Assembly: GCF_018417535.1 (NCBI RefSeq)
Contig: NZ_CP070979.1
Span: forward strand, 868,001-932,000
Source of the DNA: Burkholderia pyrrocinia
Lineage (GTDB): Bacteria > Pseudomonadota > Gammaproteobacteria > Burkholderiales > Burkholderiaceae
Direction of reading: 5' to 3'
Length of the DNA: 64,000 bases
Numbering within the stretch: the first letter of the stretch is position 1; the number at the start of each line of letters is the position of its first letter. Below the pieces are notes generated by a model. That model was not told where the DNA came from and made no database searches. It worked only from the letters and a program-made list of their open reading frames with translations. A program made the translations under genes and the position numbers. Below, piece by piece: positions 46,565 through 55,306 of this stretch.

Positions 46565-46933
46565 TCATTGCCCCGCTTCCAATCGCAACTCGAGTTGGCT
46601 CGTCACCGACGTCACGCCGGATACCTGGCGAGCCGCGTCCACGGCGACTTTCTCTTGCGACTCGTCCGTTATCAATCCGGTCAGTGTAACTTCGCCCGTC
46701 TTTGCCTTGGCAAATACAGTGATTTCCGCGCCGCCGATACCACGCGCCCTAAAAATTGCCTGACGGATCGTCTTTGCGAACGCGCGGTTCGCTGCGCGCT
46801 CGGCCTTCTTTGCTGCGTGAGGCGACATTGCCGATTGAGTCGTTTGCGGGGCTGGCGTATCGGATTGCGCATCGCACATAGCAGATGAAAGCGCAACGAA
46901 CCCTGCAACAACGATCATGAAACGCGTCTTCAT
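46565..46933 (-). CDS. Exported BON-domain protein
   Basis: A 122-residue protein with signal peptide (MKTRFMIVVAGFVALSSAMC, cleaved before QSDTPAP) and one BON domain at ~50-120 (AFAKTIRQAIFRARGIGGAE, GEVTLTGLITDESQEKVAVD). BON proteins such as OsmY protect the envelope under stress. It starts at 46933 with GAGGAGA, and the ATG overlaps the stop of the chimeric sigma/LysR frame by one base, so it lies behind the first ECF-type promoter. It may be a member of the local ECF regulon. Confidence 0.85.
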   Translation of the reverse strand: MKTRFMIVVAGFVALSSAMCDAQSDTPAPQTTQSAMSPHAAKKAERAANRAFAKTIRQAIFRARGIGGAEITVFAKAKTGEVTLTGLITDESQEKVAVDAARQVSGVTSVTSQLELRLEAGQ

Positions 46934-47475
46934 TATCTTCTCCTCGACGAAAGCGAAACGGAAACTGCAGATTGGTGAACGCCGGAGTGCTGCGTTCGGT
47001 ATTGCGCTTGAATGGTTCCCTCGAAATCCGGCCGACAGGCATCACTGCCTTGCACTGGAATCGAATCCAGTCCCCTCTCGTCAGCGCCTAGTGCAAGTGA
47101 AAACGTCATACTCAAATGATCAAGAAACGTCCTGATCTTCGCGTCCACGAGCTGCCTCGACACATACATTGCGTAAACGCCAAGCATCCTCTGGTGATAT
47201 TCCGGCAAAACCCTGACAAGTCGGCCGCTTCGAAGATCATCGATGACCGCATGGATTGCCAATGGTCCGATATCGCGGACGATGCTCAGCAACCAGGCAC
47301 GTGCATCAACACCCTGAAACCCATCGATAAACCTGAATGCCTTGACATACGCTTCCTGAACAACGTCCTGTGCATCCTGGTCGTTGTGGGTCAACCATCT
47401 GGCGCCACCGTATGCGGAATTCATATGAGGCATTACCAAGCTTTCAAAACGCCTTACATTAGTCTGTTCATTCAT
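46933..47475 (-). pseudogene. Chimeric frame: ECF sigma region 2 fused to a LysR tail
   Basis: Residues 1-68 are an ECF sigma N-terminus (VMPHMNSAYGGARWLTHNDQ, DAQDVVQEAYVKAFRF) closely like the intact sigma gene at 52637-53176. At about residue 69 (near base 47271) the frame passes without a stop into a LysR effector-domain end (GPLAIHAVIDDLRSGRLVRV, then LVDAKIRTFLDHL). Sigma region 4, needed for -35 recognition, is absent. The ECF-type promoter upstream (47526-47550) is intact, so the frame may still be expressed. Either it is a deletion/recombination scar or a short RNA-polymerase-binding product. Confidence 0.7.
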
Positions 47476-47522
47476 GTTGAACTCGAATTGTCAAAGCATC
47501 ACGAGCCGTTCCCGACCGTTAG

Positions 47523-47550
47523 ATGACCATCGGTGCACGCCTTTTATTCC
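47523..47550 (-). promoter_or_regulatory. ECF-type promoter of the chimeric sigma frame
   Basis: On the minus strand GGAATAAAA (47550-47542), 13 bases, then GGTCAT (-10 from 47528). Same layout as the promoter of the intact sigma gene, suggesting that both genes were self-activated. Confidence 0.6.
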
Positions 47551-48300
47551 GCACTACCGGTTGTGCACTGCGCGCTTTGGTATCCCCACATACAACGTCA
47601 AGCCACGAGCTTCCTCGAGCGTCCCCTGGTATGCCGGTCTGGATCGACTACACGATCGCGCCGGGGATACAAGCTGCCATTCGCATCGCCTTTCCTACCC
47701 TTATGAGGATTCCTTTTTGTATGGCAACAGGAATCCCAGTACAGGCTACGATTCCTGAACGCCGCCGAGTTATACAGCTATGCCACGTGCTCTGCGGCGA
47801 CACTGCATCCTCCCTACTGCCGCCTGCCTCCGACCGTGTGCACTCTCTCACGACCGGTTCGCCGCAGTGACGCGCCTTACGCGCTCTGACTCCGTGGCAG
47901 GTACTTACGCGCAGTCGTGACGACCAAGCATCTGGAGACCAACAACCTACCGGTGTACATGCGTCGTTCGAGCATCATCTTCAGAACCCGAAGTTCTCGT
48001 GATCGCCGGCGTAGACTCCGGCACGGAGCGCACCACCGCGTCCGCAGCAGTTCAGCTGCATTCTGCGCACGAAATTGGTGCCACAAGCGTTCTTCTTTTT
48101 ATACGTACGCGCCGACACTTTGAATCGAACTGATCAGAGGACGTCACTTCGCTGACGTTGAACGTCGCCTCCATGCCATGCGGCTGGGATGAATGTGTGG
48201 CTGAGGATGGAGCGACCAATGCCGTTGATCTGCTCCAGCAACTTGCCAGACGACCCGATCGCTAACTGCTTCATGTTTACCTGCGTCCTTGGCAACTTTG
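47551..48300. other. Decayed DNA without intact gene
   Basis: About 750 bp of mixed composition. Overlapping frames on both strands (up to ~115 codons) show no recognisable domain and no convincing start site. The region probably holds remains of one or more genes that I cannot identify. It ends at the ECF-type promoter of the first DUF4148 gene. Confidence 0.4.
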
Positions 48301-48328
48301 GGAATAAGAGGCACCCGCTCCCGGTATA
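48301..48328 (+). promoter_or_regulatory. ECF-type promoter upstream of the DUF4148 pair
   Basis: GGAATAAGA (48301-48309), 13 bases, then GGTATA (48323-48328). It agrees in -35 core, spacing and GGT start of the -10 with the promoter of the ECF sigma gene. It lies about 145 bp before the first DUF4148 gene. Confidence 0.55.
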
Positions 48329-48472
48329 CCGTGGTGTGAGCACGCCAATCACGACTACGGCGTTTCTGGCCCCTCACATTGAAGTGAACAGAGAAAAGAG
48401 AAGCCGGGTAATTTTTCCGGGCGCTTCATGATACGAACCCACAACTCTCACAAATTTAAATCGGAGTCCAAA

Positions 48473-48802
48473 ATGAACAAACGAACTATGATTCTCGCCG
48501 CAGCAGCGGGTATTTCGATCAATGCCCAGGCTCAGGAAAAGACCCGATCGCAGGTACGGCAGGAGTTGATTGAAGCCGAACGCAATGGTCTGAATTTCGT
48601 GAGCGACACGTCGTACCCCGACGTTGCGCCGATCTTTGAACAGCAAGTCGCGCGGCTCAAGCAGCAAAACAGCGACAGTGGAATGGGTGCCGCAACAACA
48701 GGCACAAGCAATGCCGGCCGGATCAAACGGGAGACACCCCCGTCATATCTGTCAGCCTGCGTTGGACCTGTCAGCTTCTGCACTATTTATTCCGGATCCT
48801 GA
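48473..48802 (+). CDS. DUF4148-like small exported protein (first of tandem pair)
   Basis: A 109-residue protein: signal peptide (MNKRTMILAAAAGISINAQA), then the DUF4148 motif TRSQVRQELIEAERNGLNFV and DTSYPD, a Gln-rich linker, SDSGMGAA, and a tail CVGPVSFC (CX6C). DUF4148 proteins are small periplasmic proteins of Burkholderiales with unknown function. CGGAG lies before the ATG. It is 67 bp upstream of a paralogue and downstream of an ECF-type promoter. Confidence 0.8.
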   Translation: MNKRTMILAAAAGISINAQAQEKTRSQVRQELIEAERNGLNFVSDTSYPDVAPIFEQQVARLKQQNSDSGMGAATTGTSNAGRIKRETPPSYLSACVGPVSFCTIYSGS

Positions 48803-48869
48803 GCCACGCGGCAACGTTCTTCACCAGTTCCCCGGCAAACCGGGTCCCTTGTTGGAAGGAGTCAAGATC

Positions 48870-49250
48870 ATGAAAAAGCTCGCCTTGCTGGCGTTGACGC
48901 TCAGCGCGCTCGTCAGCTCTTCAGTGACTTTTGCGCAGTCCGCGTCCGCTCCACTCACCCGAGCGCAGGTACGTGCCGACCTCATCAGGATCGAACAGGC
49001 TGGATACAATCCGTCGGCTAACGACGACACAACCTATCCCGCAGATATTCAAGCTGCGGAGGCGAAAGTGGCCGCTCAGGACGCTGAGCAGCAAGCCGCC
49101 ACCCCCCAGCAGCAAAAAAGCGACAGTGGCATGGGCGCCGAAATGAACGGCGCAAGCGATTCCGGCCACATCAAACAAAAGATGACTCCCCCAGATCCGT
49201 CGACCTGTGTCGGACCTGCTAGCTTCTGCCATGTTTATTTCGGCTCGTGA
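48870..49250 (+). CDS. DUF4148-like small exported protein (second of tandem pair)
   Basis: The 126-residue paralogue has a signal peptide (MKKLALLALTLSALVSSSVT, cleaved after TFA), the core LTRAQVRADLIRIEQAGYNP and TYPADIQAAEAKVAAQ, the same SDSGMGAE linker and the same CX6C tail (CVGPASFC) and final Tyr-x-Gly-Ser. GGAAGGAG precedes the ATG. Both tandem genes probably share one ECF-driven transcript. The shared tail suggests a disulfide-closed end that is not part of the usual DUF4148 core. Confidence 0.85.
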   Translation: MKKLALLALTLSALVSSSVTFAQSASAPLTRAQVRADLIRIEQAGYNPSANDDTTYPADIQAAEAKVAAQDAEQQAATPQQQKSDSGMGAEMNGASDSGHIKQKMTPPDPSTCVGPASFCHVYFGS

Positions 49251-50061
49251 ACCACACGCCACCGAGCCTCGTCGGAAGTAGTTTCATACGCACCCTGTGC
49301 CAACCTCTCGTGTGCCGTGTCAGCTTGCCGGGCATGGCACGACGAGGAAAATTCGCCGAAGTGCAAGCTCGTGGTCATTGCAGATGACCATGATCTTTCA
49401 TTTGCCGTGCACACGTTTTCTGCTGTACCCAGATGAAGTTGCCGTTGTCGACGCTACCGTTGGCCTACTCTGGAACCATACGAAACTGGGCAACATGGCG
49501 AGTGTCTTCTCGTATCTTCTACAGGAATTCTTAGGTCCGTATCGCTGATCGACTGCCTTTCATTCGAGCATCATAGATGCATGCCTGACAGCCGGTCGAA
49601 TCCAGGAATATCTGAACCCAACCGACAGTCCTGCAAACAAGACCGCACGAAAAAAAGGGGCGAATAAGGGGAGAATAGGACATCAGCGGCATAGCCCGAG
49701 CATCGGGAATGTCAGTTATCCTCGACGGCAGGATCGGCCAAGAGGAATACCAGAGCGTTTGCGGTTCATTATCGGTGTTGCAGCGATTTTCTGAGGCAGT
49801 ATGTCACTCCAAGGCGAGCTCGAAAGGTAATCCGGAGTGTGTACGATAGTCCATCTGCCACGCATGAGAAAAGCTGTGCAATGCTCACAGTCTGGTAGGG
49901 CGGTTCTCGCCACTCGGAAGCTGCCGTACTACGTATGCGACAAGCAGGACGTTGGGGCAAGACGTTGGATGCATGACTAGACACGCGCCGCCGCAACCTC
50001 GGGCTGTCCCCGAATTGACACTCAACGAATTGCACCTGATCGAGAGGGTTAAAAGCGGAAT
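49251..50061. other. Gap with possible response-regulator trace
   Basis: About 800 bp with no intact gene. Around 49370 one frame reads VVIADDHDL, like the start of a NarL-type receiver domain, but it stops within 20 codons. A weak relative of the ECF promoter pattern begins near 49605 (GGAATATCT, 13 bases, AGT). The promoter of the cyclase gene should lie in the last 200 bp. Confidence 0.35.
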
Positions 50062-51759
50062 ATGTCGCGCTTTCCCAGTTTTCATAGATTGCGGCCGACG
50101 GGGGTGCGATCAGTTCGGCTCGCCAGCGGATTGGTACTGTTTACCTATGTCGGGACGCATCTCCTGAATCACTCGCTGGGCAACATCTCACTTGCGTGGC
50201 TGGAGCGTGGTCTGCTCGTGCAGAAGTTCATCTGGCAGGGATGGCTTGGAACGGGTGTGCTGTACAGCGCACTGGCGACACATTTCTTCCTGGGTCTGTG
50301 GGCTCTGTATGAGCGGCGCTCTGTGCACTGGAATCGGGGTGAGGCAGCGCAACTCGTCCTCGGATTGTGCATTCCGCCGTTGCTGGCAAACCATCTCGCC
50401 AATACGCGGGTCGCATTTGCCGCGTTCGGCCTGAACAAGGGATACGCGCAATTGTTGTACTCGTTCTGGATCACTTCGCCGTTCTTCGGCCAGGTGCAAC
50501 TGATGCTGCTGGTGGTTGCCTGGTCGCATGGGTGTTGTGGTGTCTGGTATTGGTTGCGGTTGAAGCCGTGGTTTGGGGCGTGGCGGAGCGTGCTACTGAG
50601 CGTCGCCGTACTGCTCCCGGTACTCGCCCTGCTAGGCTTCCTGCAAGGCGGACGCGAAGTGATCGCACTCGCTCAGAATCCCGTCTGGCGCGCAGCAGCG
50701 ACCCGATCGACGATTGTCGGGACAGGATTGCAAAATCTCTGGCTCGCCGATCTGCGCAGCGACTTTTTGCTTTTCGATGGCGGTGCGCTGCTATTGGTAT
50801 TTGGAGCGCGGCTGCTGCGCACAGTCCGGGAGCGCCAGCGCGGACGACTCTGCATCTTGTATCCGGACGGGCGCAAGGTATTCACGCCGCTCGGATTTTC
50901 GGTGCTGGAAGCCAGTCGGATGGCCGGCATTCCCCATGCCAGCACATGCGGTGGCCGTGCCCGATGCACATTGTGCAGAGTACGTGTGCTCAGCGATCTG
51001 CCGCTGCCCACGCCATCCGAGGCGGAGCGGCGCGTCCTGGAGCGACTGGGAGCTGACTCGCAGACAGTGCGGCTCGCTTGCCAGCTACGGCCAATCCACG
51101 ATCTCTCAGTGTGGCCCCTCGTCCCGCCGGCCGCGTCCACGGCCTTCCTCCCGCGGCGTCAGCAGGACGTCACGCCGCAAGAGCGATTCGCGGCGTTCAT
51201 GTTCGTGGACATGCGGGGCTCCACACAGCTTGCTGCGGCACAACTACCGTTCGACAGCATATTCGTAGTCAGCCGCTTCCTGAGCGCTGTCTGTGCCGCG
51301 GTGGTCCAGGCGGGTGGGATGCCAAATCAGTTCATGGGGGACGCCGTGCTCGCGATCTTCGGCTTACACTGCGAGCCAGCCATTGCTTGTCGCCAGGCGC
51401 TCCGTGCGGTGCCGTTGGTGGCAGCCAACATTGATCAACTCAGCGCTGTGCTCGAGCAGCAATTGCAAACACCCATACGGTTTGGCATTGGATTGCATTG
51501 TGGTAAAGCGGTAATGGGTGAGATCGGCTTTCGCGAGCACGCGACATTCACGGCAATTGGTGACCCACTGAACGTGGCTTCAAGACTCGAGGAACTGACA
51601 AAAGAACTCGGTTGCGATGCTATCGTCTCCGAACAGGTATTCCAGCATGCCGGCGTTTCGGCGGCAGACCTGCCGCGACTTGATGCACAACTGAAGGGCC
51701 GCGACGACCCGGTGCCTGTCCGCGTGCTGTCCAAGGCGTCCCAGATGTCCCAGGCCTGA
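50062..51759 (+). CDS. Membrane-bound class III adenylate cyclase with ferredoxin domain
   Basis: A 565-residue protein in three parts. Residues ~1-255 form about six membrane helices with His33, His37, His74, His111 and His156 placed as in b-type heme anchors of the succinate-dehydrogenase/CyaC kind. Residues ~262-350 are a plant-type 2Fe-2S ferredoxin domain with C296-x5-C302-x2-C305 and C340. Residues ~375-560 are a class III cyclase domain with metal Asp383 (FVDMRGST) and Asp427 (NQFMGDAVLAIFG), then TAIGDPLNVASRLEEL. It probably makes cAMP in response to quinone or electron-carrier redox state. It is convergent with the anti-sigma/sigma pair. Confidence 0.87.
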   Translation: MSRFPSFHRLRPTGVRSVRLASGLVLFTYVGTHLLNHSLGNISLAWLERGLLVQKFIWQGWLGTGVLYSALATHFFLGLWALYERRSVHWNRGEAAQLVLGLCIPPLLANHLANTRVAFAAFGLNKGYAQLLYSFWITSPFFGQVQLMLLVVAWSHGCCGVWYWLRLKPWFGAWRSVLLSVAVLLPVLALLGFLQGGREVIALAQNPVWRAAATRSTIVGTGLQNLWLADLRSDFLLFDGGALLLVFGARLLRTVRERQRGRLCILYPDGRKVFTPLGFSVLEASRMAGIPHASTCGGRARCTLCRVRVLSDLPLPTPSEAERRVLERLGADSQTVRLACQLRPIHDLSVWPLVPPAASTAFLPRRQQDVTPQERFAAFMFVDMRGSTQLAAAQLPFDSIFVVSRFLSAVCAAVVQAGGMPNQFMGDAVLAIFGLHCEPAIACRQALRAVPLVAANIDQLSAVLEQQLQTPIRFGIGLHCGKAVMGEIGFREHATFTAIGDPLNVASRLEELTKELGCDAIVSEQVFQHAGVSAADLPRLDAQLKGRDDPVPVRVLSKASQMSQA

Positions 51760-51851
51760 CAACCCTTCTCGACATTGCGCGGCACGCTGGCGAATGACGA
51801 TGCATGAGCGTCACCCGGATAGTCCACAGTGCGCGTGCCGCGTTGCGCCGG

Positions 51852-52637
51852 CTAGGAAGCGGGATGCGCTCGCAGGTCCGAGATGAAGCCGTTCAGTTCC
51901 ATGTCCCCGGCATCGGTAATTGCCCAGTAGTTCATTCCTCCAGTACTCCAGTGCGCGAGGTGATAGCCCTGCCGCTGGTAGATATGAGGTATGGCGCCCG
52001 CGTCGTCGCCCGGCCATACATAGAGATTGATCGGATGCAGCTTGTACCGGTACACCATCACGGCCACCGACCGCCCATTCAAGTAATCCAGCCGCCCACC
52101 GACCAGCGGATATCCCTGCTGCGCCAGATCGACCACTGGCGGCGCAAAGTCCAGCTTGCCGTCAAACCACGGCTTGACCGTGTGCCGGTCGGTTGAAATC
52201 ACATCAGACAGATGATTGAACTGCAACGAGCGGATATGGTTGTCCACGAGTTCCTGACTCAGACGCGTCTCGCTCGACGGCACCGAAAGGAACAACCCTG
52301 CGCCCCACGTCAACGCGACCACACTCATCACCATCGCGCCGACCGGCGCCCAGCCCAATGCCTCGCCGCCACTGCGCGAACCGAATCGCTCAACCAGTCG
52401 TTGCCAGAGCGATGGCCGTCCCGGCAACGCGGCCTTGATACGCTTAACCAGTTCCGCGGGCGCCTCAAAACGCAAATCCGCCTGCCTTAGCTGCACACTC
52501 ACCTGGTGCTGTTGCGAGTAGTCCCGCTGACACTGCTCGCAGCCTGCCATATGGCGCTCGAATTCAAGCGCCTCGGACAGGCTCAATTCCTGGTCGATAT
52601 AGCCGGGCAGCAGTTCGAAGGCCTGGTCGTGATCCAT
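51852..52637 (-). CDS. Anti-sigma factor (zinc-finger, single membrane helix)
   Basis: A 261-residue anti-sigma factor. The ZAS motif is H29-x3-C33-x2-C36 in the N-terminal cytoplasmic domain, followed by a membrane helix (~96-118) and a 140-residue periplasmic sensor domain ending HWSTGGMNYWAITDAGDMEL. The ATG at 52637 overlaps the sigma stop by one base and has AGGAGG four bases upstream; a GTG one codon earlier is too close. It should hold the adjacent ECF sigma factor inactive until an envelope or redox signal arrives. Confidence 0.9.
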   Translation of the reverse strand: MDHDQAFELLPGYIDQELSLSEALEFERHMAGCEQCQRDYSQQHQVSVQLRQADLRFEAPAELVKRIKAALPGRPSLWQRLVERFGSRSGGEALGWAPVGAMVMSVVALTWGAGLFLSVPSSETRLSQELVDNHIRSLQFNHLSDVISTDRHTVKPWFDGKLDFAPPVVDLAQQGYPLVGGRLDYLNGRSVAVMVYRYKLHPINLYVWPGDDAGAIPHIYQRQGYHLAHWSTGGMNYWAITDAGDMELNGFISDLRAHPAS

Positions 52638-53176
52638 CACGCCTCCTGATCCGTCGGGGCGAGAAGCGCCGCAAGTTGCTGGCGCCCGCGTCCGAGGCGC
52701 GACATCACCGTCCCCATCGGGATATCCACAATCGCGGCAATTTCTTTGTACGACAATTCCTCCAGCTCCCGCAGCACGATTACCTCCCGGTATTCCAGAC
52801 GCAGACTCTGCAACGCCCTGTGCACCCGCTTCCGGCTCTGGCTGCGTATGAGCATTGCTTCAGGACCGTTGTCGTGATCAGCGGTACTCGTCTCAAGGCT
52901 ATGCATATCTTCCTCAAACTCCAACGTGTCCGGTGCGTGGCCCCGGTTCTGCTGATACCAGGTGTAGAACGTATTGCGCACAATGCGCAACAACCAGGCG
53001 CGGGCATCGTCGCCGTGGAATCCACCAAAAAACCGGAACGCGCGCAGATACGCCTCCTGCACCACGTCCTGGGCATCCTGGTCGTTATGCGTCAGCCATC
53101 GCGCAACATTGAAGGCCGAATTCATGTGAGGTAACAGAAGCTTCTCAAAGCGCTGCGCGCTGACCGGATCAGCCAT
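52637..53176 (-). CDS. ECF-family RNA polymerase sigma factor
   Basis: A 179-residue sigma factor with region 2 (LTHNDQDAQDVVQEAYLRAF, then ARAWLLRIVRNTFYTWYQQ) and region 4 (LRLEYREVIVLRELEELSYK, EIAAIVDIPMGTVMSRLGRG). It directs RNA polymerase to a special promoter set. It is coupled to its anti-sigma gene. A GGAATAAAA-N13-GGT site lies upstream, so it is probably self-activated, and the same pattern precedes neighbouring DUF4148 genes. Its first 68 residues closely match the chimeric frame at 46.9-47.5 kb. Confidence 0.93.
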   Translation of the reverse strand: MADPVSAQRFEKLLLPHMNSAFNVARWLTHNDQDAQDVVQEAYLRAFRFFGGFHGDDARAWLLRIVRNTFYTWYQQNRGHAPDTLEFEEDMHSLETSTADHDNGPEAMLIRSQSRKRVHRALQSLRLEYREVIVLRELEELSYKEIAAIVDIPMGTVMSRLGRGRQQLAALLAPTDQEA

Positions 53177-53219
53177 TGTGAAATTCCTGCAGTAACCACA
53201 TTCCGTGACCGACAGTAAT

Positions 53220-53247
53220 CTAACCGTCAGTACGTCGTTTTTATTCC
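53220..53247 (-). promoter_or_regulatory. ECF-type promoter of the sigma/anti-sigma operon
   Basis: On the minus strand GGAATAAAA (53247-53239), 13 bases, then GGTTAG (from 53225). It is 45-70 bases upstream of the sigma start and serves as the reference for the other copies in the block. Confidence 0.65.
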
Positions 53248-53717
53248 CCGACGGCCAAAATCACCTCGTATTACTCTGGCGTAGCGCGCGGAGGTCATGT
53301 GATCGATAATCATGCGCGGACAAATCCTGGGGAAAAGCCTCAGCTGACGCAGATTCATCGAGCTAACCAAGCTTGCCGCCCCGAATTATCTCCGGCTTGA
53401 GTCGCCAGTCAAATGCTCCCTCTGCTCGATCAGGTGCACTATCCAACACCCCTCGCTCAGCTCCCCCATACCGGCTGGCGGTACCCTAGAGCGCGGGCAG
53501 ACAGATGAGTGATTGCATAGACTTCTGCATCCGCGCTGAAGGTCACAGCCCCCTCGGCGAGAGCCGGGATTCGCGAGTGGTCCGATGTTAGAGACGTCTT
53601 GGTGAACGATGTCTTACCAACCAGTAGCCAAACCGAACCCGCCACGGGGCGCCCCTCAAACCGACCACGCCTGGCTTCGAGAAACCGCGGGTGACCTGTA
53701 CACGCTACCTGTTGCAT
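53248..53717. other. Gap without supported gene
   Basis: About 470 bp. One minus-strand frame of 86 codons (53457-53717) begins directly after the stop of the neighbouring DUF4148 gene, but it has no ribosome binding site and no recognisable domain. I leave it uncalled. No repeats or terminator were seen. Confidence 0.4.
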
Positions 53718-54035
53718 TCATGGCGCGGGCTTCGTCTGCACTTTCGGGTTTCTTCCGGTCAGCGCATCCCGTTCCGCTTGATGTTTGACCGCCAGTCTTT
53801 GTTCCGCCGCCTGAATGTCATCCGGGTAGTAGAAGTCATTGGGAACGGGGCGATATCCCACTGCCTCCAGTTCCTTGAGTTCCTGACGCACTTCTGCGCG
53901 GGTGATCTGATGGATACCGGGCTCCGTCGATGTTTGCGCGTACACACAGGCTGACGTTGCCATCAGCGCCGCGCTTACTATGAATGAACCACGTGCGGAT
54001 TGGCCAGCAAGCCAATTAAGCGAATTCGATTTCAT
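53718..54035 (-). CDS. DUF4148-like small exported protein (third copy)
   Basis: A 105-residue protein with a long signal sequence (to about ACVYA-QT) and the DUF4148 core ITRAEVRQELKELEAVGYRP, FYYPDDIQAAEQRLAVKH. It lacks the SDSGMG linker and the CX6C tail of the tandem pair. AAGGGG precedes the ATG at 54035. An ECF-type promoter lies 75-100 bases upstream. Function unknown, periplasmic. Confidence 0.85.
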   Translation of the reverse strand: MKSNSLNWLAGQSARGSFIVSAALMATSACVYAQTSTEPGIHQITRAEVRQELKELEAVGYRPVPNDFYYPDDIQAAEQRLAVKHQAERDALTGRNPKVQTKPAP

Positions 54036-54108
54036 GTCGCTACCCCTTGGTTTTCGAGCGCGTGATGTCCACAGTCGACTTGACTCCAGCGCACGACGCT
54101 CTAATCGG

Positions 54109-54136
54109 TAAACCATTGAACCGGCATCCTTATTCC
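54109..54136 (-). promoter_or_regulatory. ECF-type promoter of the third DUF4148 gene
   Basis: On the minus strand GGAATAAGG (54136-54128), exactly 13 bases, then GGTTTA (54114-54109). Core and spacing match the promoters of the sigma operon and of the other DUF4148 genes. Confidence 0.6.
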
Positions 54137-54159
54137 CCTACTCTCTTACACAGCCCGCG

Positions 54160-54187
54160 GGAATATCCGGCGACGGAACAGAGTCTA
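54160..54187 (+). promoter_or_regulatory. Weaker ECF-type site facing the YceI transcript
   Basis: GGAATATCC (54160-54168), 13 bases, then AGTCTA (54182-54187). It shares GGAATA and the spacing but has A in place of the first G of GGT. It faces away from the DUF4148 promoter, toward the hypothetical gene and the YceI lipoprotein gene. Confidence 0.35.
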
Positions 54188-54237
54188 CTCATTGCATATC
54201 GAAAGACTGTACGAGGCCGGCAGCGAAGGAACCTGAC

Positions 54238-54570
54238 ATGCAAGACGTTTTCACGAGAGCAAGCGCGTCGCGAGTGCTGACGGCGTTGAGAGGAATCGTG
54301 CCAGCGGTACCGCGGGCAGCGTCACTGCGCAAGGTCCCAGTTCGTGACGATATCAACACGCCTAAAAACAGCACTCGGCTGATGCAGCGAGCCGCACGCG
54401 GGAACGAGTACTCCGCCCACGGTGATCGGCAAGCGGGAGAACTGAATCTGAATCCAGCGAATCCGCGGGAGCAACTCGCCAAGGGTTTGCTGAACAACGC
54501 GCAGTCCAGCAGATATGGATCGCCACTAGCCGGCGTGACGACCTATGTCGTGCCACCTCCGATCAATTGA
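54238..54570 (+). CDS. Hypothetical protein, 110 residues
   Basis: A 110-codon frame starts at 54238 with GAAGGAA eight bases upstream (MQDVFTRASASRVLTALRGI). It is basic, without signal peptide or membrane segment, and ends TTYVVPPPIN. No family is recognised and codon use is only moderately convincing. It lies 43 bp ahead of the YceI gene and may share its transcript. Confidence 0.4.
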   Translation: MQDVFTRASASRVLTALRGIVPAVPRAASLRKVPVRDDINTPKNSTRLMQRAARGNEYSAHGDRQAGELNLNPANPREQLAKGLLNNAQSSRYGSPLAGVTTYVVPPPIN

Positions 54571-54613
54571 GGGTCCGGCAGAGCCGGGTTGATTGGACAC
54601 TGGGATGGAAACG

Positions 54614-55306
54614 ATGAAGAAGCATTCCGTTTATGCGATTGTCATGCGTGCGTTGTGGATCTCGGTGCTAGCAATGGTCGCTTCATGCATGCCACTCCGG
54701 GTGGTCACGCATACCGTCAGTCAGTCGGAGAAGCGGGTGCCGCCAGGCCAGTACGAACTTGATCCATACCACTGGAGCATTACATTCGATGTCGATCACT
54801 TCAAGTATTCGCGCTTCACGATGCGCCTCGATCGTGCAACCGCGAAGCTCGATTGGAACGAAGGTGGGCTCGACAGAAGTTCTGTCGCAGCGACCATCGA
54901 TGCCGCCAGCGTGGACACCCACGTGCCGCTACTCGACAAGCTCGTCCAAGGTGCTGATATGTTCGACGTGGCGCGTTATCCGCAGATCCGGTTTGTCAGC
55001 ACGCGTTTCGAACGCACTGGAGAGGCGCGCGGTACGTTGACTGGCGATCTGACGATCCACGGCATTACTCAACCAGTGACGCTTGACGTGACGTTCAATG
55101 GCTTCGCACCCAATCCACTGACGAAACAGGACACACTCGGCTTCTCGGCGGACGGTCGCTTCAGCCGCGCGAGGTTTGGACTATCGACGTGGTTCCCGGC
55201 CGTAGGCGACGAAATCGACGTGCGGATTCAGGCGGAATTCGTTCGGCAACCCGCGGCGCCCGTGCACGCTACTGGCATACTCGACACGTCGTTCAGGAGG
55301 TCATAA
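54614..55306 (+). CDS. YceI-family lipoprotein
   Basis: A 230-residue protein with a lipoprotein signal (LAMVASCMPL; lipid-bearing Cys near residue 25) and a YceI beta-barrel: PPGQYELDPYHWSITFDVDH, FDVARYPQIRFVSTRFERTG, GTLTGDLTIHGITQPVTLDV. YceI-type barrels bind isoprenoid chains such as quinones. GGATGGA precedes the ATG at 54614; ATG at 54605 is the alternative. It is directly followed by the patatin pseudogene. A quinone-binding envelope protein fits the redox theme of the nearby cyclase. Confidence 0.87.
   Translation: MKKHSVYAIVMRALWISVLAMVASCMPLRVVTHTVSQSEKRVPPGQYELDPYHWSITFDVDHFKYSRFTMRLDRATAKLDWNEGGLDRSSVAATIDAASVDTHVPLLDKLVQGADMFDVARYPQIRFVSTRFERTGEARGTLTGDLTIHGITQPVTLDVTFNGFAPNPLTKQDTLGFSADGRFSRARFGLSTWFPAVGDEIDVRIQAEFVRQPAAPVHATGILDTSFRRS

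Follow-up and report, generated by a model that had tools for sequence, protein, structure and literature searches.

Does a motif that recurs beside the gene for an extracytoplasmic function (ECF) sigma factor mark the promoter read by that sigma factor, and how far does the resulting regulon reach? A 64,000-nucleotide stretch of the Burkholderia pyrrocinia genome (assembly GCF_018417535.1, contig NZ_CP070979.1, positions 868,001 to 932,000; here, the window) raises this question: its segment at 46-55 kb carries genes for an ECF sigma factor and a membrane anti-sigma factor, three genes for DUF4148 proteins, and four copies of the two-part motif GGAATAA-N15-GGT. The motif is most likely the autoregulated promoter of this sigma factor, and we consider the segment, with a probability of about 0.88, a horizontally spread ECF sigma island with a local regulon, for which we infer binding, transcription, cross-reading and signal. 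The system offers a candidate, testable regulator for some members of DUF4148, a family without known function whose proteins are described, in the available part of the source, as small, exported and mostly from Burkholderiales, and of which one member, BPSS1996, yielded attenuation in mice when deleted (PMC7549894). It also places a fixed-spacing promoter beside this sigma factor from Burkholderiaceae to Ktedonobacteria, and provides a likely example of promoters outliving their sigma factor.

Four strong sites cluster in the window

The initial annotation listed four GGAATAA-N15-GGT sites, and all four are present, at 53247 (minus strand), 47550 (minus), 48301 (plus) and 54136 (minus), each with a spacing of exactly 15 and each, as had also been stated, pointing toward a gene start. 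No other match to the pattern exists in the window, for which 100 first-order Markov simulations give a mean of 0.03 matches. The whole 8.54 Mb genome contains 10 exact matches, versus 4 for the reversed pattern, and 4 of the 10 are packed into 6.6 kb of the window. We conclude that the bare pattern is modestly more frequent than chance genome-wide, and that the local cluster and the positions of its sites are not due to chance.

The sites were scored with a matrix trained on sites from the loci of 80 relatives (see below), with the window left out; since the training sites were chosen by the pattern itself, conservation of the boxes among them is no evidence. Beyond the fixed bases, the matrix contains a G before and an A after the −35 element and a C before the −10 element, and its spacer is nearly uninformative (151 distinct sites from relatives). 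With distances counted from the start of GGAATAA, the putative promoter of the sigma/anti-sigma operon (GGGAATAAAA-N13-CGGT; 53220..53248, minus) lies 71 bp before the sigma ATG and scores 31.1 bits, that of the third DUF4148 gene (54109..54137, minus) lies 101 bp before its ATG and scores 24.7 bits, that of the DUF4148 tandem (48300..48328, plus) lies 172 bp before the first ATG and scores 23.6 bits, and that of a truncated second sigma gene (47523..47551, minus) lies 75 bp upstream and scores 23.1 bits; the best reversed-control match scores 11.9 bits. The third-DUF4148 promoter is preserved in loci L088 and L089, a near-identical copy of the tandem promoter stands ahead of a related tandem in L111, and the promoter at 47523..47551 has a counterpart at L111:5893. 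Duplication of a single segment is a very improbable origin for the four sites: two of them do precede related sigma genes, and there are three DUF4148 genes, but the bases between the boxes differ among the four sites, and the spacer columns hold little information in the relatives' sites.

The operon encodes an ECF sigma factor and a zinc-type membrane anti-sigma factor

The sigma factor (179 amino acids; 52637..53176, minus) contains only regions 2 and 4 (Sigma70_r2, PF04542, at residues 17-78; Sigma70_r4_2, PF08281, at 116-168), the composition of an ECF, or group IV sigma-70, factor. It is 94% identical to a Paraburkholderia solitsugae sigma factor, and scores 234.4 bits against the PRK12533 model (NF009185), under the curated cut-off of 248.

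The anti-sigma factor (262 amino acids; 51852..52640, minus) has the arrangement H30-x3-C34-x2-C37, a hydrophobic helix at approximately residues 100-120, and a periplasmic domain at residues 158-261. The H-x3-C-x2-C ligands, which characterize zinc-associated anti-sigma factors, are preserved in 75 of the 77 anti-sigma factors aligned; zf-HC2 was found in all 16 of those scanned, and the sequence matches RsiW and RsrA. By family, the protein is zinc-type and membrane-bound, and would be expected to bind the sigma factor. In a structure model, its periplasmic domain resembles the C-terminal domain of RseB; this domain gave no Pfam RseB match and no Foldseek match at E <=0.001. The RseA/RseB and MucA/MucB pairs, which control sigma-E and AlgU, differ from the island system in that the island would unite both parts in one polypeptide. 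RseA is not known to carry the zinc motif.

The motif accompanies relatives of the sigma gene at a fixed spacing

A genome collection, scanned once for sigma-factor relatives, gave 265 matching stretches, 227 of which encode a relative; the best 80 form loci L088-L167, several of which end early at contig ends. The motif (score of at least 9 of 11) is found within 300 bases upstream of the sigma gene in 72 of the 80 loci, as compared to 3 of 80 reversed regions and 5% of segments drawn at random from these loci. A slightly wider pattern gives 152 sites in the 1.31 Mb of the 80 loci and 3 sites when reversed. Of the spacers tested, from 8 to 23, N15 gave 142 sites (1 in the reversed control), and none of the 15 others gave more than 8. 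We conclude that the spacing is sharply fixed at N15. Carriers range from Burkholderiaceae to Ktedonobacteria, the latter with sigma factors of 56-60% identity, and in the ktedonobacterial loci (L126-L129, L131, L133 and L135) the site is directly upstream of the sigma gene in 7 of 7, a distribution that suggests transfer between phyla.

Among 65 genomes of the genus, the island-type sigma factor (at least 88% identity) is present in 2, a lineage of 59-67% identity in 8, and relatives of approximately 49-57% identity in most. All 57 genus genomes whose sigma relative reaches E <=3e-46 carry at least one exact refined site, and 45 of them at least two; genomes with only a relative of approximately 38% identity (99-100% complete) carry one in 0 of 7 cases. 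The corresponding values for the reversed control are 30 of 57 and 2 of 7.

Promoter and gene layout fit the ECF26 group

For the ECF26 group, the available text of one source gives a cross-species consensus of GGAATA at −35 and GT at −10, together with membrane anti-sigma factors (PMC6180224). The window promoter matches this consensus, and the layout also agrees: the gene downstream of the sigma gene encodes an anti-sigma factor with an N-terminal anti-sigma domain, a transmembrane helix and a periplasmic domain. The system thus fits an ECF26-like assignment by promoter and layout, with a promoter type that has already been described. It is hardly credible, given the two-part motif, its fixed spacing, its place before the sigma gene itself and its match to the published ECF26 consensus, that the motif is the site of another regulator that merely adjoins the sigma gene.

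According to the passages available, the Sinorhizobium meliloti ECF26 factors RpoE1, RpoE3, RpoE4 and RpoE6 share with the island the GGAATA/GT promoter, RpoE1 activates its own operon, as is proposed for the island, and a downstream anti-sigma factor has an N-terminal anti-sigma domain followed by transmembrane and periplasmic domains (PMC6180224, PMC3511301). The targets differ: those reported for RpoE1 and RpoE4 in the accessible text include sulfite oxidation genes (PMC3511301), whereas the candidate targets of the island are DUF4148, YceI, cyclase, metallophosphoesterase and cytochrome b561 genes. In a pairwise comparison, the island sigma factor shares 39% identity with an S. meliloti pSymA sigma factor across 142 alignment columns; the pSymA protein, from an unannotated record, was taken as RpoE6 from its replicon and an adjoining motif-like site. 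The frame that follows the pSymA sigma gene lacks the H-x3-C-x2-C arrangement that the island anti-sigma factor possesses.

A singlet-oxygen regulon of the RpoE-ChrR type was considered and rejected, as its consensus, TGATCC-N16-CGTA in the available excerpt, differs (PMC5507510). BPSS1996 is, like the island members, a small exported DUF4148 protein, but it adjoins a two-component system, and the text of its paper names neither a sigma factor nor ECF (PMC7549894), whereas the island DUF4148 genes stand behind predicted ECF promoters. The literature search returned nothing linking DUF4148 with an ECF sigma factor and nothing linking GGAATAAA with sigma and Burkholderia, and the GGAATA motif does not occur in the available parts of PMC8103513 or PMC10880074.

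Sites extend to other replicons

The regulon had been described as local. The local cluster stands, but sites reach other replicons. Exact or near-exact sites in the same genome lie before a paralogous sigma/anti-sigma pair on C1, before genes for cytochrome b561 (PF01292) and a metallophosphoesterase (PF00149) on C2, and, on C3, before the gene for a 389-amino-acid protein that matches the membrane part of the window cyclase (39% over 186 residues). Identification of the C3 protein as a cyclase paralog was ruled out, as it has no Pfam domain and its similarity is limited to cyclase residues 18-201 (39%). Two further exact matches, at C1:1607385 and C2:2160892, have no recognisable target gene.

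Matches do extend to DUF4148 genes elsewhere in the genome, in that a tandem at C2:2711356 has a site with a weaker −10 element (14.8 bits), but 25 of the genome's 30 DUF4148 genes (L019-L048) lie outside the motif. Three putative promoters cover just 5 of the 30, two of these 5 through the weaker form, and DUF4148 was therefore rejected as a general marker of the regulon. Two other DUF4148 loci yielded matches of 9.1 and 10.7 bits, which do not reach the best control match and were not counted.

A tally of targets, for which frames were called mechanically, covered 162 sites from the 80 loci, from stretches of the same genome and from the window: 69 sites lie before a sigma-clustered frame, 40 before a metallophosphoesterase gene and 8 before a DUF4148 gene, with at least one site misassigned (L099:9363, which is actually ahead of a DUF4148 gene). 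The metallophosphoesterase (for example, L094:11466-12407), the commonest motif target after sigma, has, on reading the sequence, a twin-arginine-like start; in L110 its gene is followed by a cupredoxin gene. L052 and L068 (C2:1903852 and C2:2061668), two motif-like stretches widely separated on C2, are nearly identical and perhaps a repeat.

Weaker sites, contrary observations and the paralogous sigma factor

A weaker fifth site had been proposed at 54160 (plus). This ECF-like site (GGGAATAT-N15-AGTC; 54159..54185, plus; 11.5 bits) faces a 110-amino-acid open reading frame and the YceI gene, and its stretch is near-identical in both relatives aligned, P. solitsugae and P. madseniana, with CGTC as the −10 element in one. 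A sixth site, absent from the initial list (GGAATAT-N15-AGTC; 49604..49630, plus; 11.2 bits), lies 457 bp before the cyclase gene. In two of the five relatives aligned, L096 and L088, a site that fits the pattern falls at the corresponding place, and the L096 counterpart is 310 bp ahead of a full-length cyclase gene. Both are probably real but weak sites.

The reading of the motif as the autoregulated promoter of the island sigma factor draws on the cluster in the window, the upstream sites in 72 of the 80 loci, the fixed N15 spacing, the co-occurrence in the genus, the ECF26 consensus and the zinc ligands of the anti-sigma factors. Several observations weigh against it. Eight of the 80 relatives have no good site upstream of the sigma gene; G057, a genome 82% complete without a sigma match, nevertheless holds one site; and neither weak site outscores the best control match. 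Counted over all 65 genomes of the genus, exact matches to the refined pattern number 121, versus 33 for its reverse, so that some of the single genus-wide sites are due to chance, and the co-occurrence of site and sigma gene is partly trivial, the one match often being the sigma gene's own promoter, lost with the gene. In the genome of B. pyrrocinia itself, the refined pattern with two mismatches gives 31 matches versus 40 for its reverse, the level of chance; the local cluster stands out in a genome scan for exact matches, but relaxed scanning offers no way to extend the regulon.

A further point on the same side is that the promoter of the C1 paralog (53% identical to the island sigma factor) has the same motif, so that this paralog could serve the same promoters. 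The promoters would then be real and served mainly by the paralog, with the island sigma factor minor or silent. Relatives at the level of approximately 49-57% identity are, as described above, far more widespread in the genus than the island type, but in the named relatives the motif goes with the island sigma factor and its neighbours, at similar distances to the starts. We regard service mainly by the paralog as unlikely, though less so than either duplication or an unrelated regulator.

A probable second-island remnant

The initial annotation described a chimeric sigma frame with its own promoter. The site before it is borne out, but the frame (46933..47475, minus) looks like a truncated sigma gene of a second lineage that runs into the remnant of a LysR C-terminus, with sigma residues 1-68 followed by LysR-like sequence at approximately residues 72-123. 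The sigma part shares 84% identity with the sigma factor of P. silviterrae (L111), 82% with that of B. multivorans WS-FJ9 (L112) and 69% with the window's own sigma factor; the other close relatives listed give approximately 68-74% over the whole stretch and 76-79% over shorter ones. L111 contains a related DUF4148 tandem divergent to its sigma gene, with matching promoters. This closest relationship to L111 and L112, together with the arrangement in L111, makes it probable that 47-49 kb of the window is what is left of a second island. The remnant frame ends in TAATG (46931-46935), overlapping the start of the BON gene, and in view of this overlap transcription from the old ECF promoter at 47550 might extend into BON.

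Proposed mode of action

In the mechanism that we propose, the membrane anti-sigma factor would hold the sigma factor through its zinc-type N-terminal domain, and an envelope signal would probably be sensed by the periplasmic domain modeled as similar to the RseB C-terminus. Released sigma factor would direct RNA polymerase to GGGAATAAA-N14-(A/G)GT promoters, the first target being the sigma operon itself, with positive feedback, and then the DUF4148 genes; the cyclase gene and the YceI pair are probably also targets. The window appears to have brought together two sister islands, one intact at 51-55 kb and the other at 47-49 kb, with a truncated sigma gene and no adjoining anti-sigma gene, and the surviving promoters at 47-49 kb would probably be read by the intact sigma factor. 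The targets on other replicons (metallophosphoesterase, cytochrome b561, the relative of the cyclase membrane part and the DUF4148 tandem) are probably shared with the C1 paralog.

A role in envelope stress fits the anatomy of the system. YceI, cytochrome b561, the cupredoxin neighbour and the 2Fe-2S cyclase together suggest a redox signal. Tentatively, and at somewhat less than even odds, these elements may be joined: a zinc-type domain and an RseB-like sensor would be combined in one anti-sigma factor, the promoters of one island would have outlived their own sigma factor and been taken over by a sister sigma factor, and DUF4148 surface proteins and a redox-type cyclase would be placed under one mobile stress switch.

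Composition of the block and neighbouring genes

The block had been described as a portable module comprising sigma, anti-sigma, DUF4148, BON and YceI genes. Its accessory nature is supported by the presence of the island-type sigma factor in just 2 of 65 genus genomes and by low G+C (1-kb values of 54-62% over 46-55 kb, versus 65% for the window), although the sequence immediately to its right is itself only at 62-64%; no tRNA gene that could mark integration is present anywhere in the window. The sigma/anti-sigma pair and the DUF4148 genes remain in the module, BON does not, and YceI is rarely kept: among the 20 loci with a sigma factor of at least 80% identity, a DUF4148 gene is present in 11 and YceI in 3. 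BON was rejected as a member, having no site of its own and occurring in 0 of 34 loci with a sigma factor of at least 60% identity and in 1 of 80 overall.

All three DUF4148 proteins match PF13663: the two of the tandem (109 amino acids, 48473..48802, plus; 126 amino acids, 48870..49250, plus) and the third (105 amino acids; 53718..54035, minus). The 110-amino-acid open reading frame (54238..54570, plus) has no Pfam family; among the loci of the 20 closest relatives, 3 contain it, and it adjoins YceI in L088 and L091. The YceI-domain protein (54605..55306, plus; PF04264) has a lipoprotein-like start by inspection.

The cyclase (50062..51759, plus) is a membrane protein with 2Fe-2S ferredoxin (PF00111) and nucleotide cyclase (PF00211) domains, and a structure model of it was unsuccessful (mean predicted local distance difference test score, 35.7). 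Like CyaC of S. meliloti, a redox-regulated membrane cyclase with which it was compared by description only, it joins a membrane part and a cyclase in one protein; the window cyclase has a 2Fe-2S domain, whereas the available text on CyaC mentions neither iron-sulfur nor ferredoxin (PMC10463352). A near-full-length cyclase gene is present in 7 of the 20 closest loci; 3 more contain pieces or relatives of the membrane part. In L096, a small open reading frame of 64 amino acids (minus strand, before 13404) stands behind an ECF site ahead of the cyclase region; L088 has a related frame, and in the window version the start appears degenerate.

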